Assembly: GCA_029215795.1 (NCBI GenBank)
Contig: JARDYH010000004.1
Coordinates: 110,752,001-110,816,000 of the forward strand
From: Anniella stebbinsi
Taxonomy: Eukaryota; Chordata; Lepidosauria; Squamata; Anniellidae
Length of the DNA: 64,000 nucleotides
Reading direction: 5' to 3'
Below the pieces are notes generated by a model. That model did no database searches, was not told where the DNA came from, and saw nothing but the letters and a program-made list of their open reading frames with translations. The stretch's first letter is position 1. Every line of letters begins with the position of its first letter. A program made the translations under genes and the position numbers. Positions 1,036 to 59,550 of this stretch are shown piece by piece.

Positions 1036-1626
1036 TGGTTGTCAGTACGTTTTCTGGACCAATTCAAAGTACTGGTTTGAACTTTAAATTCCTAAACCGT
1101 CTGCTTGCACTAAGAACTCCTTGAAAGCTCTACACATGTGGCCATTGTTGCGAGTAATCTGGTGGGCACAGCTTTTTTCATTGATTGTCTCACATTTATG
1201 GAACTCTATTTTAACAATTTCATATAGCCCCATCTAGTGCAGGCCTTCAATTGGGCATTAAATATTTTGTTGTTGTTGTTGAAAAGTACGTGATGCTACT
1301 GTAGACTGATCAGGCTTTCATTATTTTATCTGCTTGTATGATATTGCGTTAAGTTGGAAACTGCTATGTATTGTTAGTATTTGTCTGCTATTTTATGTTG
1401 CCTAGTATACTGTGTTTTTGGATATTTGCAAGGATTTGTTTTTATGAGATATTGTATGATGAAAGCCGCCTTGTGACAGCTTGGCCCACAAAGGCAGTTT
1501 ACAAATAATTAAGGGCACAATCCTGTGCATGTTTAGACAGAAAAAAGTCCTACAATTGGGAAGGCTCCCGAACCCGTCACCTCAAGCACCCTAAGCACTG
1601 AGCATTCTGAATAGATGGAAAGGGAG
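1036..1626. other. Degenerate repeat debris left of the giant hAT
   Basis: Around 1444-1505 there is a second LINE-type tail (GCCGCCTTGTGACAGC followed by a LINE-like end). From 1512 the motif 'AAGGGCACAATCCTGTGCAT' begins one arm of a fold-back repeat, more complete at 32294-32414. No coding evidence. Confidence 0.4.
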
Positions 1627-1634
1627 GTCGGAAT
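1627..1634. repeat. Target-site duplication, left copy
   Basis: GTCGGAAT directly precedes the left end of the hAT element and recurs exactly at 14924-14931, right after its other end. Eight bases is the hAT superfamily length. The sequence also fits the nTnnnnAn preference described for the Ac-like group (T at position 2, A at 7). Confidence 0.93.
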
Positions 1635-1650
1635 TAGGGGTGTGCATCGG

Positions 1651-1797
1651 ATCGGATCCGATCCACGATCCGAATCCGATCCGCCCCAAAAATCGGAAAA
1701 TCCGATCTGATCCGATCCGATCCGATACACCATCCGATCCGATCCGATCCGATCCGGCGAGGTCCGATCCGGATCGGATCGGATCGGCGGATCGGAC
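1651..1797. repeat. GATCC-rich subterminal block (left)
   Basis: Consists almost entirely of overlapping GATCCGATCC/CGGATCGGAT motifs in both orientations, so a single strand can fold on itself. A matching but not identical block lies at 14775-14902. The position just inside the tips suggests clustered transposase binding sites, as in the subterminal repeats of Ac/Tol2-type elements. That role is inference. Confidence 0.75.
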
Positions 1798-2442
1798 GCC
1801 ATTTTAAATGCGTTTTTCCCATAGCAAAGTATTGTTGTTTTACAAAAACGCCTATAACTTTTTCATTTTTAACGACAGAAGGATGAAACTTGGGCACATT
1901 GTACACTGGTTAGGGATAGGTATCTGTGAGAAATTTCAGAAAGATTGGTGCATGCAGTTTGTGGCAATTAATTTTTTAATAAATAACATGGAATGCCTAT
2001 AACTCGGTCATTTTTAAAGTTACACACATGAAACTTTGCCACATTGTAGGTGGAACCTTGGGACCCACGTGTGTGAAATCCCAGAACCGTGGGTGCTTGC
2101 CTGGTGTGGCAATGAATTTTTGAAAAATGGGTAGTAGTGGGGTAAATGCAGTTATGCCTCCCATGTTTTTATTTTTAAAGATACAAACAGGACACTTCGG
2201 CACATTACAGGGAACACTTCCCTTGATATGTGTGTAAAATTTCAGACAGCTAGCTCCAGGCATGTGTTGGCAATGAATTGTTGAAAATTGGGTAGCAGTG
2301 GGGTAAAATACAGTTTTGCCTCCCATTTTTTTATTTTCAAAGATACAAACGGGAAACTTTGGCACATTGCAGGGAACACTTCACTTCAAATGTGTGTGAA
2401 ATTTCCGGAAGCTAGGTGCAACATTTTAGTGGGAAACGAACG

Positions 2443-2883
2443 TTTATTCATGGCATTTCACATGGGATTTATGGGTTGGTTTTAAGAGCTACAAACCTCT
2501 AACTCGCTCACATGGCACAGGACCTATGCCCGCTCAAACGCTGGAAATTTAACAAACTTTGGTGCAATGCTTTAGTGGGAAAACAAAGGTTTATGCATGG
2601 CATTTCACATGGGATTTATGGGTTGGTTTTAAGAGCTACAAACCTCTAACTCGCTCACATGGCACAGGACCTATGCCCGCTCAAACGCTGGAAATTTAAC
2701 AAACTTTGGTGCAATGCTTTAGTGGGAAAACAAAGGTTTATGCATGGCATTTCACATGGGATTTATGGGTTGGTTTTAAGAGCTACAAACCTCTAACTCG
2801 CTCACATGGCACAGGACCTATGCCCGCTCAAACGCTGGAAATTTAACAAACTTTGGTGCAATGCTTTAGTGGGAAAACAAAGG
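2443..2883 (+). repeat. Three 147-bp tandem units in left arm
   Basis: Units at 2443-2589, 2590-2736 and 2737-2883, each beginning TTTATGCATGGCATTTCAC (TTTATTCATGG in the first) and ending GGGAAAACAAAGG. They are almost identical. The right arm has four units, so the two arms differ by one repeat. Confidence 0.93.
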
Positions 2884-2962
2884 TTAAACTTTATTATTTT
2901 AAACCTTCAGGAAAGGGAGGGGGAGGCTGTGTTTGTGTGTGTGTGTTTGACAGCTTGATCCA

Positions 2963-3058
2963 CCAATTGTGCTTTAGAATACATGACTGAATCACCCAAT
3001 CCTGTGAAGACTTTCTTCAGCCTCCAATCGCAATGCTGGAGGAGGGCACCAGTATATA
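2963..3058 (+). promoter_or_regulatory. Transposase promoter: CCAAT boxes and TATA box
   Basis: CCAAT occurs at 2963-2967, 2996-3000 and 3024-3028, followed by TATATA at 3053-3058. This lies immediately inside the left inverted repeat and about 470 bp upstream of the transposase start codon, all on the coding strand. A start site near 3083 would be expected. The leader contains a CT run followed by GT repeats (about 3369-3415). This is promoter-like by motif only; no transcript evidence is available. Confidence 0.6.
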
Positions 3059-3368
3059 TTCTCTCAGCCCTGCCCTTCTGGCTCTTTGTGGGTTGAACGT
3101 GGAGGAGATTAGGGAGTGTTTTGGAGCTGTGTTGGAGAGACTGTATTGATTTGATTGCATTTGGAGGTGGTTTTGAGGAGTTTCTGATCTTTTACTTCAG
3201 CTTTTCTTGTTCTCTCTCTTGGCTTTCCTTTCTCTCTTGCCTTTCCTTTCTTAGATAGCACGTTTGTTTGTCTGTGAGTTCAGTTTGTCTTTGCAGTGAG
3301 TGTGTTTGTTTGTTCTACTTTCGCTTTCTGAAAAAAACCCAAAAAAATAATAAAAAAATATTTCTATC

Positions 3369-3415
3369 CTCTCTCTCTCTCTCTCTCTTTCTCTCTGTGT
3401 GTGTGTGTGTGTGCG
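3369..3415 (+). repeat. (CT)n-(GT)n run in transposase leader
   Basis: Simple repeat of CT followed by GT/GC dinucleotides between the putative promoter and the transposase ATG. It creates a spurious reading frame on the opposite strand. Confidence 0.8.
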
Positions 3416-3523
3416 CGCTTGTGAGTGAGTGTGTGTTGCTGGGCTGTGTAGCCTGCTGCTACAAACACAAAAAAAGTCAGCAAAGCACACACTTACACAA
3501 AAATAAATAATAATAAAAATAAA

Positions 3524-6052
3524 ATGAAGCGTGGCACTCAAAGGGGGGGTGCTCCCAAGGCAGCATTTGGGAGAGGCCGCTCTGGGCATGGCGCTGCTGC
3601 TGCTGCTGCTGGGACCAGCAGCAGGCAGCCTACTTCCACACCCCCAGTTAAACTGAGGCGTTCTCCACTGGGGCAGCAGAAGCAGGCAGAGGCAACTCAA
3701 AGTAGTGCCTGCAGGGCACTCTTTCAGCAACATGAGGCAGGTGCTGGGAGCAGCAGTGGGCATGAAGAAGGAGCACTATATCCAGCTCCTTCTTTGGTGG
3801 GTGAGCCTGTGAACCCGCTGACTGATCTTTTCCCAGATCTTGTGGAAGTCAGCGAGGTTCAGAGTGAGGAGGAGGACTCTGATGTGGGGCAAGAGGAAGA
3901 GCAGGCAGCACCAGAGACTTACTCTCCACAATCCGTCCTCTCTTCCACTCATTCCCTTGCTCCTGAGGTGACACCACAGAGCGAAGGCGCCGGCAGGCCG
4001 TCTGTGTCACCCCAGAAGCGACAGGCAAGCAAGGTGTGGGACCACTTTGAGGTGGGAGTGGATTCCCGCTTTGCTGTCTGTCGCCACTGCAAGATGTCAG
4101 TGAGCAGGGGAAAAATGCCAGGCCACTTCACCACCACGAACCTCACCCGCCACATGCAGAGGCACCACCAGTCTGTTTTGCTTGGGACCGAGGCGGGCAC
4201 CTCGCAGCAGACTGGTGCTAGCGGCAAGGGCAAGCAGAAGGCTCCTGCAACTTCTGCCAGCTCTCGACCTCCCATCCCCAAGAGGCTTCGCCAGGCCACC
4301 ATGGAAGAGATGGGGTGGGGGAAGTATGGAGCCACAAGGTGGCGTTTTCCAGCGCCCAACCAGATCACCAATTGCATCGGTGAGATGGTGGCGTTGGATG
4401 ACCAGCCATTCAGCCTCGTCGAGAACGCAGGCTTCAAGAGGCTGATGGCTCTTGTGGTTCCATACTACAAGCCGCCGTGTCGCACCACCCTGAGCAGGCG
4501 TGTGGTGCCCTCCCTGTACCAGGCATGCAGGGAGTTAGTTCTGGGTCGTCTGTGCCAGGCAGAGGCACAGAAGGTGCACTTCACTTCGGACATCTGGTCC
4601 AGCGAAGGAGGAGTGCACGCTTACCTGTCCCTGACGGCTCACTGGTGGGGAGCCTCAGGGCAGGAAGCACCCAGGACTTCTGGGACTGGGAAGGAGGGCT
4701 GCCGCTGGGCCCTCCTTCATACCGCAGTCATGGACCAGTCCCACACGGCGGAGGAGATTACGGAGGCCATGAACCGCATGGTGGCAGGGTGGCTGGGCGG
4801 GCACCAGCACACCCGCGGTTACATGGTCACGGACGGGGGAGCCAATATGCTGAAGGCGGTGCGCGATGGCGGATTTGAGGGCATCCGCTGCATCGCGCAC
4901 GTCTTCAACCTGGTCGTGAGGGATGGCCTTGGAGGCAGCAAGGCCCCTCTCCCTCCCCAAATCCGTAATCTCCTAGAGAGCTGCAGGAAGGTGGCTGGGC
5001 ATTTCCACCACAGCGTGAAGGGCAGTCGGTTGCTGCGGGAGAAGCAGCAGGAGCTGGGACTTCCGCAGCACCGGCTAGTGCAGGACGTGGCAACACGTTG
5101 GAACTCCACCTACCACATGCTCGAGCGTATGGTGGAGCAACAGCGTGTTGTCCACGAGATGTTCAGGGTCGGGGACATTGGCATCCAGGCCCCACTGTCC
5201 AGGCAGCAGTGGGAGGCCATGTCCCAGCTTCTGGTGGTCCTCAAGCCGTTCCTTGAGGCCACCGAGACCCTGAGCAGCAGCACTGCCCTTCTCAGCCAGG
5301 TGCTCCCCGTGGCCAGGCATCTCCAGAATCAGATGGGCGAGTTTCTGGAGGCCGGGGATGCCGTCACCGGCAGGCGCTTCCTGCCAGAGGTGCGGGAAGT
5401 GGTGACGAGGCTGAGGGAAAGCCTATCCCGCCGGGTCCAGCCTCTCTACAACGAGAGGCAGTACATGTTGGCCACCATGTGCGACCCGCGCATCAAGGAT
5501 GGGTTATGTGGGCAGACTTCCCGGGCAGGTTGGGTGGAAATGCTGGTGACGGACGTTCGGGCGGCCCGGGATGCCAGGATTGGGCAGGCAGAGGAGGAGC
5601 CCACCGAAGCCCAGGCGCTAAGTCCGCTGAGCACCACCAGCAGCGGCGGCACCAGCACCACCACACCCAGCAGGGGGACAGGCCAGGGGTTTTGGGACAA
5701 GGCTTTGCAGGCTGCGGTTGGGCATAGAGGCACTCAACCCAGCCGCCGCCAGGATGACGCTGCAGCAGCAGTGCAGCGTTACCTGGCGGAGCAGATGGAG
5801 GACGGCTCCATCGAACCCCTGGCCTACTGGTCATCTCGGCGCCAGATGTGGCCTGATCTGGCGCGGGTGGCCATGGACAGAATCAGCTGCCCACCGTCCA
5901 GCGTTCCAAGCGAGCGGGTGTTTTCCATGGCGGGCGACGTGGTCACACCCCACCGCTCTCGCTTGGACGCTGAGATTGTGGAGCAGCTGGTCTTCCTCAA
6001 GGTCAATCTGCCCCTGCTGGGATACCCCACCCTCATGCCCGCGGGGGAGTAA
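3524..6052 (+). CDS. hAT-superfamily transposase with BED zinc finger, 842 aa
   Basis: Predicted to cut and paste the surrounding element. A disordered N-terminus has an Ala run (residues 24-29) and an acidic patch (about 109-127). A BED-type zinc finger follows at about 168-216, with C186 and C189, H210, and H214 or H215 as likely ligands. The hAT catalytic core shows the D-x-W motif FTSDIWSS (D356), the second acidic motif VTDGGANM (D437), the CxxH pair C456/H459 and the TRWNSTY motif (W526). A Ser/Thr-rich spacer (about 698-718) precedes the hAT C-terminal dimerisation region, with WSSRRQMWPDLA (769-780) and SERVFSMAG (796-804); E797 is the likely third catalytic residue. It most resembles the Ac/Tol2/ZBED1 group. 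All motifs expected of an active enzyme are present, in one exon without stops. The first ATG gives the full BED domain. Domestication is possible but unlikely, because it still lies between intact element ends. Confidence 0.95.
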   Translation: MKRGTQRGGAPKAAFGRGRSGHGAAAAAAGTSSRQPTSTPPVKLRRSPLGQQKQAEATQSSACRALFQQHEAGAGSSSGHEEGALYPAPSLVGEPVNPLTDLFPDLVEVSEVQSEEEDSDVGQEEEQAAPETYSPQSVLSSTHSLAPEVTPQSEGAGRPSVSPQKRQASKVWDHFEVGVDSRFAVCRHCKMSVSRGKMPGHFTTTNLTRHMQRHHQSVLLGTEAGTSQQTGASGKGKQKAPATSASSRPPIPKRLRQATMEEMGWGKYGATRWRFPAPNQITNCIGEMVALDDQPFSLVENAGFKRLMALVVPYYKPPCRTTLSRRVVPSLYQACRELVLGRLCQAEAQKVHFTSDIWSSEGGVHAYLSLTAHWWGASGQEAPRTSGTGKEGCRWALLHTAVMDQSHTAEEITEAMNRMVAGWLGGHQHTRGYMVTDGGANMLKAVRDGGFEGIRCIAHVFNLVVRDGLGGSKAPLPPQIRNLLESCRKVAGHFHHSVKGSRLLREKQQELGLPQHRLVQDVATRWNSTYHMLERMVEQQRVVHEMFRVGDIGIQAPLSRQQWEAMSQLLVVLKPFLEATETLSSSTALLSQVLPVARHLQNQMGEFLEAGDAVTGRRFLPEVREVVTRLRESLSRRVQPLYNERQYMLATMCDPRIKDGLCGQTSRAGWVEMLVTDVRAARDARIGQAEEEPTEAQALSPLSTTSSGGTSTTTPSRGTGQGFWDKALQAAVGHRGTQPSRRQDDAAAAVQRYLAEQMEDGSIEPLAYWSSRRQMWPDLARVAMDRISCPPSSVPSERVFSMAGDVVTPHRSRLDAEIVEQLVFLKVNLPLLGYPTLMPAGE

Positions 6053-6633
6053 TTGGCAGGCACCCCCCATCCATCCCACACCTTTGGGCAGGCACCGGCA
6101 GGCCCTTGATTTTTTAATTCTTATTTTCGGTTAATTAATTTTCTTTACTTTAATTTACTGGCTGTGTTGTTTACAGCTCAGTAACTCAACTCTGAACGAT
6201 GGATCCCGAAGGGATCTAGTTTCTTCTCCTAGCCTCTTACATTGAGGGGATGCACAAGCATCTCACACATTCTATGTTGTTTGACTTGAACCAATGTGCT
6301 TGCACGTGTGCCTCTGAAATTGGACTCCGATGGCTCCCTCCAGGCCTTCTGTAAGGTCCCACACTTCCATGGGCGTTTCTTCTTGTAAGACCACGTCAGA
6401 GGCTCATGAGAACTTTGGATAAGAAGAAGGCTTAATTTTATCGCCAAGGAACGCATGCACCTCTCTGACTATGAACGAAGGACGCGATAGGATTCCTCTT
6501 CCAGGCTCCTACATTGAGTGGATGACAAGCAGCATCCCACACTGTTTCTGACTGTGTCTTTTGGACTTATGTGGCAGCCTTGCAGGGCTGTCACTGTGTG
6601 TTGTGTTTATTTTGGCTATATGATTTAAAAAAC
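6053..6633 (+). other. Transposase 3' flank inside the hAT
   Basis: AT-rich after the stop codon. No AATAAA or ATTAAA seen close by. Two related segments (6215-6270 and 6495-6550, sharing 'CTCCTACATTGAGTGGATG'-like sequence) suggest an old internal duplication. The transposase transcript may run on into the arrays for its polyadenylation signal. Confidence 0.5.
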
Positions 6634-8226
6634 TGCCTGCCCGCCTGCCCGCCTGCTAGGTTGCCGCCATTGTGAAGTAGCCGGAATGCGTGGGCTGGTC
6701 TCACGGTTCTATTGCTTACTTGTGCAATGCGCAAGCGCCTGGCATCATGCCCGCCTCTGCCTCTGCCTCTGCCTGCCTGCCTGCCCGCCTGCTAGGTTGC
6801 CGCCATTGTGAAGTAGCCGGAATGCGTGGGCTGGTCTCACGGTTCTATTGCTTACTTGTGCAATGCGCAAGCGCCTGGCATCATGCCCGCCTCTGCCTCT
6901 GCCTCTGCCTCTGCCTCTGCCTGCCTGCCTGCCCGCCTGCTAGGTTGCCGCCATTGTGAAGTAGCCGGAATGCGTGGGCTGGTCTCACGGTTCTATTGCT
7001 TACTTGTGCAATGCGCAAGCGCCTGGCATCATGCCCGCCTCTGCCTCTGCCTCTGCCTCTGCCTCTGCCTGCCTGCCTGCCCGCCTGCTAGGTTGCCGCC
7101 ATTGTGAAGTAGCCGGAATGCGTGGGCTGGTCTCACGGTTCTATTGCTTACTTGTGCAATGCGCAAGCGCCTGGCATCATGCCCGCCTCTGCCTCTGCCT
7201 CTGCCTCTGCCTCTGCCTGCCTGCCTGCCCGCCTGCTAGGTTGCCGCCATTGTGAAGTAGCCGGAATGCGTGGGCTGGTCTCACGGTTCTATTGCTTACT
7301 TGTGCAATGCGCAAGCGCCTGGCATCATGCCCGCCTCTGCCTCTGCCTCTGCCTCTGCCTCTGCCTGCCTGCCTGCCCGCCTGCTAGGTTGCCGCCATTG
7401 TGAAGTAGCCGGAATGCGTGGGCTGGTCTCACGGTTCTATTGCTTACTTGTGCAATGCGCAAGCGCCTGGCATCATGCCCGCCTCTGCCTCTGCCTCTGC
7501 CTCTGCCTCTGCCTGCCTGCCTGCCCGCCTGCTAGGTTGCCGCCATTGTGAAGTAGCCGGAATGCGTGGGCTGGTCTCACGGTTCTATTGCTTACTTGTG
7601 CAATGCGCAAGCGCCTGGCATCATGCCCGCCTCTGCCTCTGCCTCTGCCTGCCTGCCTGCCCGCCTGCTAGGTTGCCGCCATTGTGAAGTAGCCGGAATG
7701 CGTGGGCTGGTCTCACGGTTCTATTGCTTACTTGTGCAATGCGCAAGCGCCTGGCATCATGCCCGCCTCTGCCTCTGCCTCTGCCTGCCTGCCTGCCCGC
7801 CTGCTAGGTTGCCGCCATTGTGAAGTAGCCGGAATGCGTGGGCTGGTCTCACGGTTCTATTGCTTACTTGTGCAATGCGCAAGCGCCTGGCATCATGCCC
7901 GCCTCTGCCTCTGCCTCTGCCTGCCTGCCTGCCTGCCCGCCTGCCCACCTGCTAGGTTGCCGCCATTGTGAAGTAGCCGGAATGCGTGGGCTGGTCTCAC
8001 GGTTCTATTGCTTACTTGTGCAATGCGCAAGCGCCTGGCATCATGCCCGCCTCTGCCTCTGCCTCTGCCTGCCTGCCTGCCTGCCCGCCTGCCCACCTGC
8101 TAGGTTGCCGCCATTGTGAAGTAGCCGGAATGCGTGGGCTGGTCTCACGGTTCTATTGCTTACTTGTGCAATGTGCAAGCGCCTGGCATCATGCCCGCCT
8201 CTGCCTGCCCGCCCGCCTGCCTGCCT
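6634..8226 (+). repeat. Tandem array A: eleven 136/148-bp units
   Basis: The core 'TTGCCGCCATTGTGAAGTAG' recurs eleven times with spacings of 136 or 148 bp. The 12-bp difference comes from two extra CTCTGC hexamers in a CTCTGC/CCTGCCTG pyrimidine tract. Cores are almost invariant. Last-unit variants include TGTGCAAG for TGCGCAAG. Apparent ORFs within it have non-ATG starts and are repeats of one another. Confidence 0.95.
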
Positions 8227-8246
8227 GGAGGTGCCCATGCAGCTGT

Positions 8247-9200
8247 GACTTTGCCTCTGCCAGTGGGACTTTGCCTCTGCCACTGGGACTTTGCCTGGAG
8301 GACCCTGTGCCAACGTGACTTTGCCTGGAGGAGCCTATGCCACTGGGACTTTGCCTGGAGGACCCTGTGCCAATGTGACTTTGCCTGGAGGGAGCTGTGC
8401 CAAACTGTGACTTTGCCTGGAGGACCCTGTGCCAATGTGACTTTGCCTGGAGGGAGCTGTGCCAAACTGTGACTTTGCCTGGAGGACCCTGTGCCAATGT
8501 GACTTTGCCTGGAGGGAGCTGTGCCAAACTGTGACTTTGCCTGGAGGACCCTGTGCCAATGTGACTTTGCCTGGAGGGAGCTGTGCCAAACTGTGACTTT
8601 GCCTGGAGGACCCTGTGCCAATGTGACTTTGCCTGGAGGGAGCTGTGCCAAACTGTGACTTTGCCTGGAGGACCCTGTGCCAACGTGACTTTGCCTGGAG
8701 GAGCCTATGCCACTGGGACTTTGCCTGGAGGACCCTGTGCCAATGTGACTTTGCCTGGAGGGAGCTGTGCCAAACTGTGACTTTGCCTGGAGGACCCTGT
8801 GCCAACGTGACTTTGCCTGGAGGAGCCTATGCCACTGGGACTTTGCCTGGAGGACCCTGTGCCAATGTGACTTTGCCTGGAGGACCCTGTGCCAACGTGA
8901 CTTTGCCTGGAGGGAGCTGTGCCAAACTGTGACTTTGCCTGGAGGACCCTGTGCCAATGTGACTTTGCCTGGAGGACCCTGTGCCAATGTGACTTTGCCT
9001 GGAGGGAGCTGTGCCAAACTGTGACTTTGCCTGGAGGACCCTGTACCAATGTGACTTTGCCTGGAGGGAGCTGTGCCAAACTGTGACTTTGCCTGGAGGA
9101 CCCTGTGCCAATGTGACTTTGCCTGGAGTAGCCTATGCCACTGGGACTTTGCCTGGAGGAGCCTGTGCCACTGGGACTTTGCCTGGAGGAGCCTATGTGC
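8247..9200 (+). repeat. Tandem array B: about thirty 30/32-bp units
   Basis: Built from three short unit types: CTTTGCCTGGAGGACCCTGT + GCCAATGTGA (30 bp), CTTTGCCTGGAGGGAGCTGT + GCCAAACTGTGA (32 bp) and a CCTATGCCACTGGGA variant (30 bp). Alternation of the first two gives a 62-bp higher-order period. Both strands stay open by chance of the repeat. No spacers separate the units, so it is not CRISPR-like. Confidence 0.93.
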
Positions 9201-9897
9201 CACTGGAGTCCTCCGATCCACAGCCGCCGCACGAATAAGGTAAGTGTGTGCAGTCAACGCAGGGACACCTGAGAGTGTCCAGAAGTGGGGCAGTGTGAGA
9301 TCTTACTTCCGAGTAAGCAAGCAGACTGCCCATCTGCCCCAGCCACGGCCGCATGGAGGTGGCCCCTCGATTCACGTCGCCCCTACGACTCAGGTAAGAG
9401 TGCAGGCAGAGTGGCCATATAGAAAAGAAGGCAGGGCCCCTGCACCTTTAACTGTTGTGATGAAGAGGGAATCTCAGCAGGAACTAATTCCATACAAATG
9501 ACACTGGCAGAAATTCCCTTTTCTCTACAACTGCTGAAGTTAGGAACCCTGACCTGGATTTGATCTGGTCAGCCTAACGTAGGGTGCTATTAGGAGTGAA
9601 TGAATAACCCAAGGACAAAAGAAATGGTGATTCTCTAATGATCCGGTAAGCTGTGTCCTGCCAGACACAAAAGGATAGCCAATCCCTCTAACAATGGGCT
9701 CAGAAGAGTGATTTAGAAAGGGAGGGGTGCAGGAGAAAGAGGATTGCATCACAAACAAGAGAAGTGTGCCGGTGGGAGACTAGTTACTAGGACTTGTTTG
9801 TATTAATTAATACAAATCTTTATTTATTTTCCTTTCTTCTTTTGCAGTATAAAAGTATTTATGTAATATTCATTATCCCCCTCCTCTTCTTTTGCAG
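9201..9897 (+). other. Inter-array segment with splice-like sites
   Basis: Array B runs into AATAAG|GTAAGTG, a strong donor-like site (GT at 9240-9241). A second donor-like CAG|GTAAGAG lies at about 9391-9400. An acceptor-like TTCTTCTTTTGCAG ends near 9847. Part of the segment (9295-9330) resembles the intron of the downstream 326-bp units. A half-length MITE copy sits at 9411-9577. This may be an intron of a cargo transcript, which is inference. Confidence 0.4.
9411..9577 (+). mobile_element. Half-length copy of the ~320-bp MITE, nested in the hAT
   Basis: Runs from GTGGCCATATAGAAAAGAAG to GGATTTGATCTGGTCAGCCTA and matches the right half of the palindromic MITEs at 16999-17318 and elsewhere. 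No clear target duplication found. It may be a monomer form of the dimeric MITE, or a fragment carried along by the hAT. Confidence 0.75.
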
Positions 9898-12263
9898 CCT
9901 ATGGCACTCTCACTGCCACAGTGCCCGGGAAAGGAGAGACTTTGCCCATTACATGCCAGCCTGCCCGCCCGCTGCTGATGCCGCCTGCCGCCTTCCAGAT
10001 CGTTCCTGCGAGGCGGGCCAGCCGCCTTTCTTGCACAAGCCATGGGACTAGGGTTCCTCCAGGAGAATCTCACCGAGTCCTCAACGCCCTCAGGACTATG
10101 GTAAGTGTTCTGTGAATGGGGGGGGGCACCTTCCACCTAACTGAAGGTTGGCTGTCTGCCTGCTAACTTCCGAGTGAGCAGGCAGCCCCGTGTGCCTGCT
10201 GGGGCGTGGGCACTCAGGACCGGGCACATGCCAGTCTTGGGTGGGAGGGAGCCAGTGGTGGAAAAGTATCATTTTTCTCATATTCTCCCCCCCCCCTTCT
10301 TCTTTTGCAGCCTATGGAACTCTTTGCCACAGTGCCCAGGAGAGACGGTAATGCAGACTGCCCACCTGCCCGTCACTGCCCGCCTGGAAGTGGCATCTTA
10401 TCAACAACGCCCTCAGGAGGACTACGGTAAGTGTTCTGTGAATGGGGGGGGGCACCTTCCACCTAACTGAAGGTTGGCTGTCTGCCTGCTAACTTCCGAG
10501 TGAGCAGGCAGCCCCGTGTGCCTGCTGGGGCGTGGGCACTCAGGACCGGGCACATGCCAGTCTTGGGTGGGAGGGAGCCAGTGGTGGAAAAGTATCATTT
10601 TTCTCATATTCTCCCCCCCCCCTTCTTCTTTTGCAGCCTATGGAACTCTTTGCCACAGTGCCCAGGAGAGACGGTAATGCAGACTGCCCACCTGCCCGTC
10701 ACTGCCCGCCTGGAAGTGGCATCTTATCAACAACGCCCTCAGGAGGACTACGGTAAGTGTTCTGTGAATGGGGGGGGGGCACCTTCCACCTAACTGAAGG
10801 TTGGCTGTCTGCCTGCTAACTTCCGAGTGAGCAGGCAGCCCCGTGTGCCTGCTGGGGCGTGGGCACTCAGGACCGGGCACATGCCAGTCTTGGGTGGGAG
10901 GGAGCCAGTGGTGGAAAAGTATCATTTTTCTCATATTCTCCCCCCCCCCTTCTTCTTTTGCAGCCTATGGAACTCTTTGCCACAGTGCCCAGGAGAGACG
11001 GTAATGCAGACTGCCCACCTGCCCGTCACTGCCCGCCTGGAAGTGGCATCTTATCAACAACGCCCTCAGGAGGACTACGGTAAGTGTTCTGTGAATGGGG
11101 GGGGGCACCTTCCACCTAACTGAAGGTTGGCTGTCTGCCTGCTAACTTCCGAGTGAGCAGGCAGCCCCGTGTGCCTGCTGGGGCGTGGGCACTCAGGACC
11201 GGGCACATGCCAGTCTTGGGTGGGAGGGAGCCAGTGGTGGAAAAGTATCATTTTTCTCATATTCTCCCCCCCCCCTTCTTCTTTTGCAGCCTATGGAACT
11301 CTTTGCCACAGTGCCCAGGAGAGACGGTAATGCAGACTGCCCACCTGCCCGTCACTGCCCGCCTGGAAGTGGCATCTTATCAACAACGCCCTCAGGAGGA
11401 CTACGGTAAGTGTTCTGTGAATGGGGGGGGCACCTTCCACCTAACTGAAGGTTGGCTGTCTGCCTGCTAACTTCCGAGTGAGCAGGCAGCCCCGTGTGCC
11501 TGCTGGGGCGTGGGCACTCAGGACCGGGCACATGCCAGTCTTGGGTGGGAGGGAGCCAGTGGTGGAAAAGTATCATTTTTCTCATATTCTCCCCCCCCCC
11601 CTTCTTCTTTTGCAGCCTATGGAACTCTTTGCCACAGTGCCCAGGAGAGACGGTAATGCAGACTGCCCACCTGCCCGTCACTGCCCGCCTGGAAGTGGCA
11701 TCTTATCAACAACGCCCTCAGGAGGACTACGGTAAGTGTTCTGTGAATGGGGGGGGGCACCTTCCACCTAACTGAAGGTTGGCTGTCTGCCTGCTAACTT
11801 CCGAGTGAGCAGGCAGCCCCGTGTGCCTGCTGGGGCGTGGGCACTCAGGACCGGGCACATGCCAGTCTTGGGTGGGAGGGAGCCAGTGGTGGAAAAGTAT
11901 CATTTTTCTCATATTCTCCCCCCCCCCCTTCTTCTTTTGCAGCCTATGGAACTCTTTGCCACAGTGCCCAGGAGAGACGGTAATGCAGACTGCCCACCTG
12001 CCCGTCACTGCCCGCCTGGAAGTGGCATCTTATCAACAACGCCCTCAGGAGGACTACGGTAAGTGTTCTGTGAATGGGGGGGGGCACCTTCCACCTAACT
12101 GAAGGTTGGCTGTCTGCCTGCTAACTTCCGAGTGAGCAGGCAGCCCCGTGTGCCTGCTGGGGCGTGGGCACTCAGGAAGGGCAATCCTGGGTGGAAGGGA
12201 GCTGGTTGTGTTGAAGTGGTCAACTAATATTCATTCTTTTTTCCCCCCCTTCTTCTTTTGCAG
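9898..12263 (+). repeat. Tandem array C: 326/327-bp units each carrying an exon-like block
   Basis: Six identical 116-bp blocks (10311-10426, 10637-10752, 10964-11079, 11290-11405, 11616-11731, 11943-12058) begin CCTATGGAACTC and end GGACTACG. Each follows C-run + TTCTTCTTTTGCAG and precedes GTAAGTGTTCTG, that is, a strong acceptor and donor. The 210-211 bp between blocks is intron-like (a CTAAC branch-like motif is present, though far from the acceptor). A diverged 203-bp block (9898-10100) opens the array. A related block starting at 12264 closes it and runs into array D. Unit length varies by one base in the C-run. Confidence 0.9.
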
Positions 12264-13183
12264 CCTATGGCACTCTCACTGCCACAGTGCCCGGGAAAGG
12301 AGAGACTTTGCCCATTAAATGCCAGCCTGCCCGCCCGCTGCTGATGCCGCCTGCCGCCTTCCAGATCCTTCCTGCAAAGAGAGCAAGCCGCCCTCCTCGC
12401 ACAAGCCATGGGACTTGGCATTCGCCCTCAAGGAGAATGTCACCCAGTCCCCAATGCCGCTGTTGGACTTTGCCCATTAAATGCCAGCCTGCCCGCCCGC
12501 TGCTGATGCCGCCTGCCGCCTCCCAGATCCTTCCTGCAAAGAGAGCAAGCCGCCCTCCTCGCACAAGCCATGGGACTTGGCATTCGCCCTCAAGGAGAAT
12601 GTCACCCAGTCCCCAATGCCGCTGTTGGACTTTGCCCATTAAATGCCAGCCTGCCCGCCCGCTGCTGATGCCGCCTGCCGCCTCCCAGATCCTTCCTGCA
12701 AAGAGAGCAAGCCGCCCTCCTCGCACAAGCCATGGGACTTGGCATTCGCCCTCAAGGAGAATGTCACCCAGTCCCCAATGCCGCTGTTGGACTTTGCCCA
12801 TTAAATGCCAGCCTGCCCGCCCGCTGCTGATGCCGCCTGCCGCCTTCCAGATCCTTCCTGCAAAGAGAGCAAGCCGCCCTCCTCGCACAAGCCATGGGAC
12901 TTGGCATTCGCCCTCAAGGAGAATGTCACCCAGTCCCCAATGCCGCTGTTGGACTTTGCCCATTAAATGCCAGCCTGCCCGCCCGCTGCTGATGCCGCCT
13001 GCCGCCTTCCAGATCCTTCCTGCAAAGAGAGCAAGCCGCCCTCCTCGCACAAGCCATGGGACTTGGCATTCACCCTCAAGGAGAATGTCACCCAGTCCCC
13101 AATGCCGCTGTTGGACTTTGCCCATTAAATGCCAGCCTGCCTGCCCGCCTTCCAGATTCTGCTGTGGAAGGAGAAATAAATAA
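11619..13183 (+). CDS. Hypothetical three-exon gene carried by the hAT (~382 aa, predicted)
   Basis: I do not recognise this product. Joining 11619-11731, 11943-12058 and 12264-13183 across two GT-AG introns (211 and 205 bp) gives one open frame. It starts at the ATG three bases into the first block. Frame shifts by two per 116-bp block. The third frame of those blocks has a TAA, but the last exon differs there and stays open. The C-terminal ~300 residues consist of about five 54-residue repeats rich in Pro, Arg, Ser and Cys. The stop (13181-13183) follows directly on AATAAA. No signal peptide or known domain is visible. The ATG context is weak (C at -3, G at +4). It could equally be an artefact of a 162-bp (multiple of three), GC-rich repeat. 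Only transcripts can decide. Confidence 0.35.
12305..13150 (+). repeat. Tandem array D: about five 162-bp units
   Basis: ATGCCAGCCTGCCCGC recurs at about 12319, 12481, 12643, 12805, 12967 and 13129, exactly 162 bp apart. Units differ at one or two positions (CCTTCCAG versus CCTCCCAG, TTCGCC versus TTCACC). Because 162 is divisible by three, one frame on each strand is open across the whole array. Confidence 0.95.
13175..13180 (+). promoter_or_regulatory. Polyadenylation signal candidate
   Basis: AATAAA immediately after array D and overlapping the end of the predicted spliced reading frame. It is the first good signal downstream of the transposase that I noticed on this strand. A second lies at 13535-13540, at the inner edge of the right arm. 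Confidence 0.4.
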
Positions 13184-13513
13184 TACTAGGTGCTGCAAGA
13201 GACCATGTGGATTGGCTCTACATCAAAGCAGCCTTCTGGTTTAGAATTACATAGTACACAAGAAAAGAACAATCACTTATCCTGCAAGATCCCTTCCCAG
13301 GCTAGGATCTGAATAATAGCTATTAGCTAGGATCTGAATAGCTATTACCTGGGATTAGCTACTAGTGCATTTGGTAGCATTCCTGCAACCAACACCTGTC
13401 TTGTCATGTAAATGTATGGGTCCCTAAAGCAATTTACAATCACTTTACATTTTACAAATGAATAAGTGAAACTTTCTTCCCTCATTACCAATCCACACCA
13501 GGCAGGCAATGTC
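13184..13513. other. Unique spacer before the right arm
   Basis: AT-rich sequence with a short local duplication (TAGGATCTGAATA.TAGCTATTA near 13302-13350). No gene or repeat family recognised. Confidence 0.5.
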
Positions 13514-13546
13514 CCCTTCCTGAAGGTTTAAAATAATAAAGTTTAA

Positions 13547-14134
13547 CCTTTGTTTTCCCACTAAAGCATTGCACCAAAGTTTGTTAAATTTCCAGCGTTT
13601 GAGCGGGCATAGGTCCTGTGCCATGTGAGCGAGTTAGAGGTTTGTAGCTCTTAAAACAAACCCATAAATCCCATGTGAAATGCCATGCATAAACCTTTGT
13701 TTTCCCACTAAAGCATTGCACCAAAGTTTGTTAAATTTCCAGCGTTTGAGCGGGCATAGGTCCTGTGCCATGTGAGCGAGTTAGAGGTTTGTAGCTCTTA
13801 AAACCAACCCATAAATCCCATGTGAAATGCCATGCATAAACCTTTGTTTTCCCACTAAAGCATTGCACCAAAGTTTGTTAAATTTCCAGCGTTTGAGCGG
13901 GCATAGGTCCTGTGCCATGTGAGCGAGTTAGAGGTTTGTAGCTCTTAAAACCAACCCATAAATCCCATGTGAAATGCCATGCATAAACCTTTGTTTTCCC
14001 ACTAAAGCATTGCACCAAAGTTTGTTAAATTTCCAGCGTTTGAGCGGGCATAGGTCCTGTGCCATGTGAGCGAGTTAGAGGTTTGTAGCTCTTAAAACCA
14101 ACCCATAAATCCCATGTGAAATGCCATGAATAAA
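13547..14134 (-). repeat. Four 147-bp tandem units in right arm
   Basis: Units at 13547-13693, 13694-13840, 13841-13987 and 13988-14134. The innermost differs by AACAAACCC for AACCAACCC. The outermost carries the TTTATTCATGG variant that also marks the outermost unit of the left arm, so the arms are co-linear. Confidence 0.93.
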
Positions 14135-14774
14135 CGTTCGTTTCCCACTAAAATGTTGCACCTAGCTTCCGGAAATTTCACACACATTTGAAGTGAAGTG
14201 TTCCCTGCAATGTGCCAAAGTTTCCCGTTTGTATCTTTGAAAATAAAAAAATGGGAGGCAAAACTGTATTTTACCCCACTGCTACCCAATTTTCAACAAT
14301 TCATTGCCAACACATGCCTGGAGCTAGCTGTCTGAAATTTTACACACATATCAAGGGAAGTGTTCCCTGTAATGTGCCGAAGTGTCCTGTTTGTATCTTT
14401 AAAAATAAAAACATGGGAGGCATAACTGCATTTACCCCACTACTACCCATTTTTCAAAAATTCATTGCCACACCAGGCAAGCACCCACGGTTCTGGGATT
14501 TCACACACGTGGGTCCCAAGGTTCCACCTACAATGTGGCAAAGTTTCATGTGTGTAACTTTAAAAATGACCGAGTTATAGGCATTCCATGTTATTTATTA
14601 AAAAATTAATTGCCACAAACTGCATGCACCAATCTTTCTGAAATTTCTCACAGATACCTATCCCTAACCAGTGTACAATGTGCCCAAGTTTCATCCTTCT
14701 GTCGTTAAAAATGAAAAAGTTATAGGCGTTTTTGTAAAACAATAATTTGCTATAGGAAAAAGCATTCAAAATGG

Positions 14775-14902
14775 CGTCCGATCCGGATCGGAAAATCCGA
14801 TCCGCGGATCGGAATCGGATCCGATCCGATCCGACACACGATCCGATCCGATCCGATCCGACCCCCCAGGTCCGATTCCGATCCGCTATCCGATCCGATC
14901 CG
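14775..14902. repeat. GATCC-rich subterminal block (right)
   Basis: Repeated GATCCGATCC and CGGATCGG motifs, partner of the block at 1651-1797. Its details differ more from the left block than the rest of the arms do, as expected if this short repeat expands and contracts quickly. Confidence 0.75.
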
Positions 14903-14923
14903 GGGGGTCAGTGCACATCCCTA

Positions 14924-14931
14924 GTCGGAAT
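14924..14931. repeat. Target-site duplication, right copy
   Basis: GTCGGAAT, identical to 1627-1634, follows the element's terminal CCCTA. Confidence 0.93.
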
Positions 14932-15074
14932 GCAAGATGTCTCTGTAGGCCTCATGCTGACGTACACTGATCATTTGTCCCTTCCATCTCACTAAATGTG
15001 AAGCATGACATAGAATCAGAAGTTAGGTACTAGTTTATGTATCTTTATAAGTTAAATAAGAGGCCAAAGCCTAG

Positions 15075-15730
15075 TCATAGAGTACCTGCTTTGCATGCAG
15101 AAGAATCCAGGGTCAACCCGTGACATTTCCAGGTAGGGCTAGCAAAGACTCCTACCTGAAACCCAGAGTCACGGCTGCCAATAAGTGTTGACAATATTGG
15201 ACTAGGTTAGGGATGTTCACACTAGGAAAACCAGTTCTTTTTTGGGTTGACAGAGTTCCACAGCATGTACAACTCGCTTTGGATTTCTGAGCCAAGTTGC
15301 AGGCTGTTCCCTGAACTCCGAGAGCTTTTTTTTTACAATTTTTTAAAGATTCTGCAATTTGTATCGATTTTTGAGCAAATTGTGCAAATGATGGCCAAAT
15401 GTGTGCAACTTTGACTGTAATAGGTGTAATTTGTGCAAATTCGGCCATAATTTGTGCAAATTCGGTCATAATTTGCGCAAATTACTCAGAAATTTGAGCA
15501 AATTGCAGAACCTTCCCCCCCCCCCCAAAATGCACAAACTTCACAGAAAATCCATGAACTGGCCCGACTCACTGCAGATTGAGTCGGGCACCACAGTGGG
15601 ATCCGAAATGAAGTTGGGGGGGAAGCCTAGGAAAACTCATCAAAATCTACTCTCGAAATGGATTTCTTCAATATCCCTAGACTAGACTAGCTGGACCAAT
15701 GGTCTAACTCAGCTTCCTATAGTCCTATAT
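15075..15730 (+). repeat. tRNA-derived SINE split by a hAT-like insertion
   Basis: The head has CATAGAGTACCTGCTTTGCA and a degenerate B box (AGGGTCAACCC), as in the SINE at 44030-44205. The body breaks at GGACTAGGT (15207) and resumes at GACTAGCTGGACCAATGG, where the intact family reads GACTAGATGGACCAATGG. The inserted piece is annotated at 15208-15679. Confidence 0.75.
15208..15679. mobile_element. Non-autonomous hAT-like element inside a SINE
   Basis: Begins TAGGGATGTTCAC and ends with the complement of TAGGGATATTGAAG. It is flanked by GACTAGGT and GACTAGAC (six of eight bases match). The left end is nearly the terminal sequence of the giant hAT. The interior has short tandem repeats of 'TTTGTGCAAATTCGGYCATAA' type, and no coding capacity. 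Confidence 0.75.
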
Positions 15731-59045: not shown

Positions 59046-59550
59046 TAGGGGTGTGCACGCCAAAAAATATCGTCATTTATCGTTATCGTCATTTTGGACC
59101 AAAAATATTATCGTCTTCATTCATATCGTAGGTGAACCGTATCGTCTTCACAATCATTATCATGAAAAAGCAATATATTTGCAACCCTATTTTTAAAGAC
59201 AAAATGCCTATAACTTCTGTATTTTAAAAGTTAGAGGCTTGAAACTTGGTCACAGTGCTTATGGGGTATGCCTAAGTATGTGTATGAAATTTGAGATCGA
59301 TCCCTCCAACCCTCGATTTTATATGATTTTTTAAAAGATTGTTTCTGTTCTGACAGGTCTGAATGAACGCACATAGCGAGCTGTCATTCTGATCTGTCAG
59401 AACTGAAACTATCTTTAATAAATTCATATAAAATCAAGGGTTGGAGGGATCGATCTCAAATTTGGCACATATGTGTAGCACATGTTGGGGATAAGATAAT
59501 AATATTGGGCATGTCAATTGCTAACATATCGAGGTACAGTCGCCCAACAC
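59046..59550 (+). mobile_element. Truncated relative of the giant hAT
   Basis: Begins TAGGGGTGTGCACG, one base different from the giant element's tip. A low-complexity ATCGTCATTTATCGTTATCG block follows, in the position of the GATCC block. Next comes GCCTATAACTTCTGTATTTT...GAAACTTGGTCACAGTG...GTGTATGAAATTTGAG, which parallels 1847-1947. A hairpin (GATCGATCCCTCCAACCCTC and its complement at about 59437-59456) fills the middle. No right tip or target duplication was found. It sits inside the LINE remnant ending at 59045. Confidence 0.6.

Follow-up and report, generated by a model that had tools for sequence, protein, structure and literature searches.

The question raised by the beginning of the window (the whole analysed stretch of 64,000 nucleotides from Anniella stebbinsi) is how a transposon of 13,289 bp, situated at 1635-14923 and having the tips and the transposase of a hAT element, became so large and how it moves. 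hAT elements are 2.5-5 kb long with terminal inverted repeats (TIRs) of 10-25 bp according to the accessible part of one source (PMC3942097), and the TIRs are 5-27 bp in the available excerpt of another (PMC12506042). We suggest, with good confidence, that the window holds a full-length intact copy of a young giant hAT family, which is likely mobilised by its own transposase in a cut-and-paste manner. Recombination and repair have likely rewritten the foldback arms and arrays of the family during the spread. By its transposase, target site and tips the element belongs to the Ac group of the hAT superfamily, and by its anatomy it is a foldback element.

The limits of the element are defined by its ends. 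A preceding sequence-only reading had described hAT-type tips and an exact 8-bp duplication on both sides, and both are present: TAGGGGTGTGCA starts at 1635, TAGGGATGTGCA, reverse-complemented, ends at 14923, and GTCGGAAT occurs at 1627-1634 and at 14924-14931 with no mismatch. Eleven further copies were bounded in the same way, by tips and 8-bp duplications. The tips are 12 bp long with one mismatch and are followed by inverted arms of ~1.1 kb. That reading overlooked the arms, which are the most unusual feature for a hAT element. In the rest of the window the joined flanks match short pieces only, and no full empty copy of the site is found.

The transposase is encoded, as was claimed, by an uninterrupted open reading frame (ORF) at 3524-6052 with the Pfam domains zf-BED (E 1.8e-9) and Dimer_Tnp_hAT (E 1.8e-15). 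Only hAT and BED models match it at E <= 0.001, and membership in Mutator or in the P superfamily, to which Galileo belongs, is thus rejected. Its matches among solved structures are Hermes transposase entries (E 9.4e-13 and weaker; four distinct sequences). D356, D437, W526 and E797, with the first codon bases at 4589, 4832, 5099 and 5912, align with Hermes residues that we take to be catalytic or essential. The nearest proteins among the best 7,987 candidates scored are annotated as ZBED4-like in Crocodylus, Anolis, caecilians and Hemicordylus (46-51% identity); however, all six compared residues are kept in only 4 of the 16 relatives aligned out of 29 protein matches. No match to the transposase was found in a search of viral contigs. 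In squamate relatives (Anolis, Liasis olivaceus) Pfam PF02023, presumably SCAN, is annotated in the same protein as the transposase-like region, an indication that squamates have SCAN-hAT fusion genes.

The host genome (1.89 Gb, 91 contigs) was searched with the transposase protein, and the best 54 of 2,322 first-look candidates were scored. There are at least 54 genomic matches, each covering 842/842 amino acids at 100% reported identity, and an artefact of one locus is rejected on this ground. The scored transposases are stop-free in 52 cases, with one stop in each of the other two. Besides the window's copy, 10 copies were examined whole, 40 by 1 kb around the left end only (one of them, copy 21, later at the right end too) and 3 not at all. 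Both tips and perfect, mutually different 8-bp duplications are found in all 11 whole copies, whose lengths are 10,212-16,200 bp. Copy 21 is the twelfth two-ended copy, with 12,072 bp and GTTTGATC on both sides. The count of full-length copies with different duplications, proposed by the sequence-only reading as a check, hence gives 12 of 12, all perfect and all different. The pairwise divergence is 0.18% on average (range 0-0.52%) over ~4 kb of non-array sequence. With duplications of this kind and such low divergence, the earlier claim of recent movement holds, and it is likely that the family spread very recently.

The choice of target is also that of a hAT transposon. A tip was found at 50 of 51 left ends, the remaining one having none in the stretch taken, and the 50 left-flanking 8-mers are all different. 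T is at position 2 in 40 of them and A at position 7 in 41, in agreement with the preference nTnnnnAn given for Hermes in the accessible part of PMC10368747.

The tips are distinguished from the rest of the element by short ATCCG/CGGAT motifs, with 20 in the outer 196 nt of the left end, 17 in the outer 177 nt of the right end, none in the arms and five in the other 10.6 kb. ATCCG dominates both tips on the + strand, so a reading inward from either end finds the bias reversed between them. Such a reversal is described for the subterminal repeats of Hermes, and ends of 150-200 bp are reported as necessary for Tol2 and Ac, both in the portions of the literature available to us. By analogy with Hermes, the two tips are predicted to be the transposase binding regions. 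A piece of an older related hAT with the same tip TAGGGGTGTGCA lies at 59046-59350 of the window. In it ATCGT-type microrepeats replace ATCCG, and one arm-like unit is ~62% like the outermost arm unit. The tip microrepeats may be family-specific labels.

The arms are unusually long and mirror each other. Positions 1831-2885 and 13692-14746 make an inverted repeat of 1,055 nt with 100% complementarity. Tandem repeats of 147 and 162 bp also lie in the arms, the 147-bp unit three times in the left arm and four times in the right one, with one mismatch in an inner unit. Read inward along the left arm, neighbouring units are 66-73% alike in the outer part and 90-100% alike in the inner part. Both arms are found in all 11 whole copies. 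Long inverted arms bearing tandem repeats around a middle domain are what defines the foldback architecture, and the family has it. In the alignment of 22 arms (the overrun of the copy 6 left arm, columns 641-760, was left out of the count) seven columns, none of them beyond column 38, separate the left arms from the right ones consistently. None of the further 11 variable columns is fixed by side, and three carry the same variant on both sides. The outer ~180-200 bp are the only part keeping fixed left/right differences, so only the tips appear to carry the identity of the ends, and we infer free recombination of the inner arms.

Two of the 49 typed copies (copies 7 and 21) have an interior in inverted orientation with respect to their tips. 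In copy 7 the right-type tip adjoins the transposase and the left-type tip is at the far end, swapped at all seven columns; in copy 21 the tips are likewise swapped. Each is flanked by a perfect duplication of its own, the two sites being different, and both have in the right-type tip one extra unit of 5 nt that was not seen in the three unflipped copies compared. This shared unit suggests to us that transposition took place in the flipped state. A single crossing over between the arms, with later movement of the flipped element, would be the simplest explanation, though two separate flips may have occurred.

The stretch from the transposase to the right arm is ~7.46 kb long in the window's copy, and the four long tandem arrays and ~7 kb of extra sequence described earlier are indeed here. 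They are, however, not constant in the family, the 326-bp unit being single in 5 of 11 copies. The transposase (99.8-100%), the nested repeat and the tail (13191-13511 in the window) recur in all 11 whole copies together with sequence from each of the four arrays. The arrays are thus part of the family, and their origin as a separate insertion is rejected. The case considered in the sequence-only reading, that no other copy would contain transposase and arrays together, is thereby not what is found. Beyond the ranges of arrays 1 and 2 given in Table 1, the unit markers per copy are 5-13 for the acceptors, 2-13 for array 4 and 2-5 and 3-6 for the arms (11 copies), and 11 distinct array genotypes are found in 11 copies. 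Copies 8 and 11 have no substitutions in 4,038 compared non-array bases, but are 14,720 and 11,385 bp long, i.e. 3,335 bp apart. With a near-identical core and variable arrays, the arrays change much faster than the bases. No private segment of at least 60 bp is present in 10 of 11 copies, the exception being copy 10 with a 3.2-kb insert. This insert, which we assume to be LINE-like, is inside array 3 at element positions 8377-11584, near 23255353 of G000:C3.

The proposed mechanism has three parts. The transposase would bind the ATCCG/CGGAT-rich tips (outer ~180-200 bp), cut the element and paste it. The inverted arms would pair and cross over, with the interior being flipped and the inner arms of the two sides staying one shared pool. 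The arrays would gain and lose length by slippage, by unequal exchange or by copying repair at the donor gap. A bolder version can be put forward only tentatively: this would be the first vertebrate hAT acting as an active foldback element, a self-remodelling giant whose arms recombine and thereby flip the entire interior, the identity of the ends being kept by the outer ~190-bp tips alone, whose minisatellite arrays are rewritten by each cycle of movement and donor-gap repair, and whose tandem exon array gives a spliced RNA of copy-specific length.

The region behind the transposase carries predicted signals of splicing. On the + strand repeated acceptors TTTTGCAG/CCTATGG and donors G/GTAAGTG flank blocks of 203 and 116 nt. 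With the arrays collapsed, 3 donors (shuffle mean 0.29) and 4 acceptors (shuffle mean 0.06) are counted, numbers reached in 1 and 0 of 300 shuffles, respectively; no donors or acceptors are found on the minus strand of the same region. Downstream of the stop codon ATTAAA first occurs at 12314, and AATAAA lies at 13175. We predict from these motifs a spliced transcript of the region, with junctions at 9239/9898, at 10100/10311 and in the array units. In the simplest case it would be a long 3' portion of the transposase mRNA, because neither polyadenylation motif occurs between the stop codon and 12314. The splice-like signals would also fit a non-coding RNA.

Several points weigh against the picture of a young, intact family with arrays rewritten during its spread. 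The 54 copies are the top scores of a protein search, which biases youth and intactness upward and leaves older and broken members under-represented. The CpG argument for youth is weak, with an observed/expected CpG ratio (o/e) of 0.05 in array 2 and up to 0.49 in GC-rich flank windows. Only 3 of 7 tested arm-unit pairs beat every shuffle, and the other four did not. The sub-lineage of copies 1, 7, 10 and 21 shares some arrays: array 4 does not vary in length among the four, nor does array 2 between copies 1 and 10. A single transposition can therefore leave some arrays unchanged. The observed variation would also arise from ordinary slippage in resting copies, with no link to transposition, and the array differences could partly be assembly errors. 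As to splicing, some of the counted acceptors are copies of others in the count, and the splice weight tables were entered by hand.

The sequence-only reading saw in the element a giant hAT lineage that had acquired cargo and repeat arrays. A giant lineage whose copies carry transposase and arrays together is borne out, whereas no captured gene is recognised. That the arrays are nevertheless cargo, either a gene captured from the host or one for a functional non-coding RNA, carried to the transposon's own advantage, is doubtful in our view. The units are exon-like, with acceptor and donor on one strand only plus a poly(A) signal, and the arrays are kept in all 11 copies, as would be expected of cargo. 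But the 306-aa ORF of array 4 has no homolog at E <= 0.001 among 7,993 candidates, Pfam on four array or arm ORFs gives nothing above the curated cut-off, and Rfam on 1500-15100 gives no match at the gathering score. Moreover, the 203- and 116-nt exons are both 2 mod 3, so their serial inclusion breaks the frame, and they are unlikely to form a coding series. Cargo-carrying giant transposons are characterised by recognisable genes in addition to the transposase; none is found here in the one ORF searched for homologs and the four scanned with Pfam.

It is also unlikely that the family is non-autonomous in practice, with most copies moved in trans by a few masters or by a shorter unscored relative. 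There is room for such a source among the 2,322 first-look candidates, only 54 of which were scored, but nearly all of the scored transposases are intact. Among the 13 distinct transposase variants, 10 are synonymous where 4.5 would be expected (P 0.0018); the copies were picked by protein score, which biases this excess, and it is not used as evidence.

We consider it very unlikely that the family is in truth uniform, with array lengths that are assembly artefacts. Tandem arrays collapse easily; however, the differences are kilobase-sized and concern several arrays independently, and sub-lineages with common diagnostic changes share some array lengths, unlike random error. Least credible is the view that the family is old, without a recent spread, and that gene conversion among its members has kept them alike, for although the arms exchange variants between sides, so that conversion occurs inside copies, the 12 perfect and different duplications lie outside the element, beyond renewal by conversion between copies, and 11 of the 13 distinct transposase variants are singletons.

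We return to the young giant hAT family and its place among known systems. With the hAT Ac group (Hermes, Tol2, Ac) it shares 8-bp duplications with the nTnnnnAn bias, short TIR tips, the BED finger, the DDE residues with W, the C-terminal dimerisation region and short subterminal repeats of opposite bias at the two ends. Cut-and-paste by a hairpin intermediate, another mark of the group, may apply to it as well. It differs in the length of 10.2-16.2 kb, the ~1.1-kb inverted arms and the variable arrays, and thus lacks the short TIRs and few-kb size that are usual, though not defining, for hAT elements. The nearest architectural parallel is Galileo of the P superfamily in Drosophila, for which the accessible text of PMC4168063 describes long inverted arms, ~140-bp tandem repeats in one copy and strong variation between copies. 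Long arms with internal tandem repeats and copy variation are common to both, but Galileo has a P-superfamily transposase, whereas the window's family has a hAT transposase and arm repeats in every whole copy. Foldback elements mostly seem Mutator-related, with exceptions, in the available part of PMC4079207. There, FB and Tetris have long inverted repeats, partly of tandem units, around a middle domain, as here; unlike Tetris, which has no transposase gene, the window's element has a transposase, and it is of hAT type.

No giant or foldback-armed vertebrate hAT was found in the literature searched, which covered few subscription papers, and Repbase or Dfam may list the family. The word hAT is absent from a review of giant transposons (PMC6431247), whose accessible part states that cut-and-paste elements above ~6 kb spread poorly, a view that the family challenges. 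Foldback transposons are seldom found together with their transposase, and the usual picture of hAT elements is one of small size and short repeats. With at least 54 giant and nearly identical copies in a vertebrate genome, flipped and unflipped and with many array genotypes around almost one core sequence, the origin and turnover of foldback arms and of minisatellites borne by transposons can be tested directly. A large-capacity vertebrate transposon tool is a possible yield.

Table 1. Features of the giant hAT element and its target site, in window coordinates
Feature	Position	Strand	Basis and remarks
Whole element	1635..14923	+	13,289 bp; delimited by tips and duplications
Target-site duplication, left copy GTCGGAAT	1627..1634	.	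sequence
Target-site duplication, right copy GTCGGAAT	14924..14931	.	sequence
Left tip, TIR with 14 ATCCG and 6 CGGAT	1635..1830	+	motif counts; predicted transposase binding region
Left inverted arm, ~7 units of ~150 bp, three inner 147-bp units nearly identical	1831..2918	+	self-comparison, repeat scan
Predicted transposase promoter and 5' leader	2919..3523	+	TATATAT near 3053; prediction only
hAT transposase, 842 aa	3524..6052	+	uninterrupted ORF; Pfam domains; alignment to Hermes
Array 1, 148-bp unit x10	6753..8206	+	repeat scan; 3-22 unit markers per copy (11 copies)
Array 2, 30/62-bp unit	8243..9194	+	repeat scan; 20-45 unit markers per copy (11 copies)
Dispersed repeat nested in the element	9408..9581	.	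in 11/11 copies at 97.7-100%
Predicted exon, 203 nt	9898..10100	+	splice prediction
Array 3, 326-bp unit x6.4, each unit with acceptor, 116-nt predicted exon and donor	10092..12177	+	repeat scan, splice prediction
Predicted last exon, includes array 4, ends at AATAAA 13175	12264..13180	+	splice/poly(A) prediction
Array 4, 162-bp unit x5.2	12304..13148	+	repeat scan; inside predicted last exon
Right inverted arm, like the left with one extra 147-bp unit	13512..14746	-	self-comparison, repeat scan
Right tip, TIR with 14 ATCCG and 3 CGGAT (+ strand)	14747..14923	-	motif counts; predicted transposase binding region

Two minor observations concern the array region. On the minus strand, 8160-9302 contains a 380-aa open frame of 10-aa repeats over array 2, with no Pfam match above the cut-off. 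The ~175-bp repeat at 9408-9581 has copies of 76-90% identity in the window's right flank, and 24 matching pieces are present in 124 kb of flanks.

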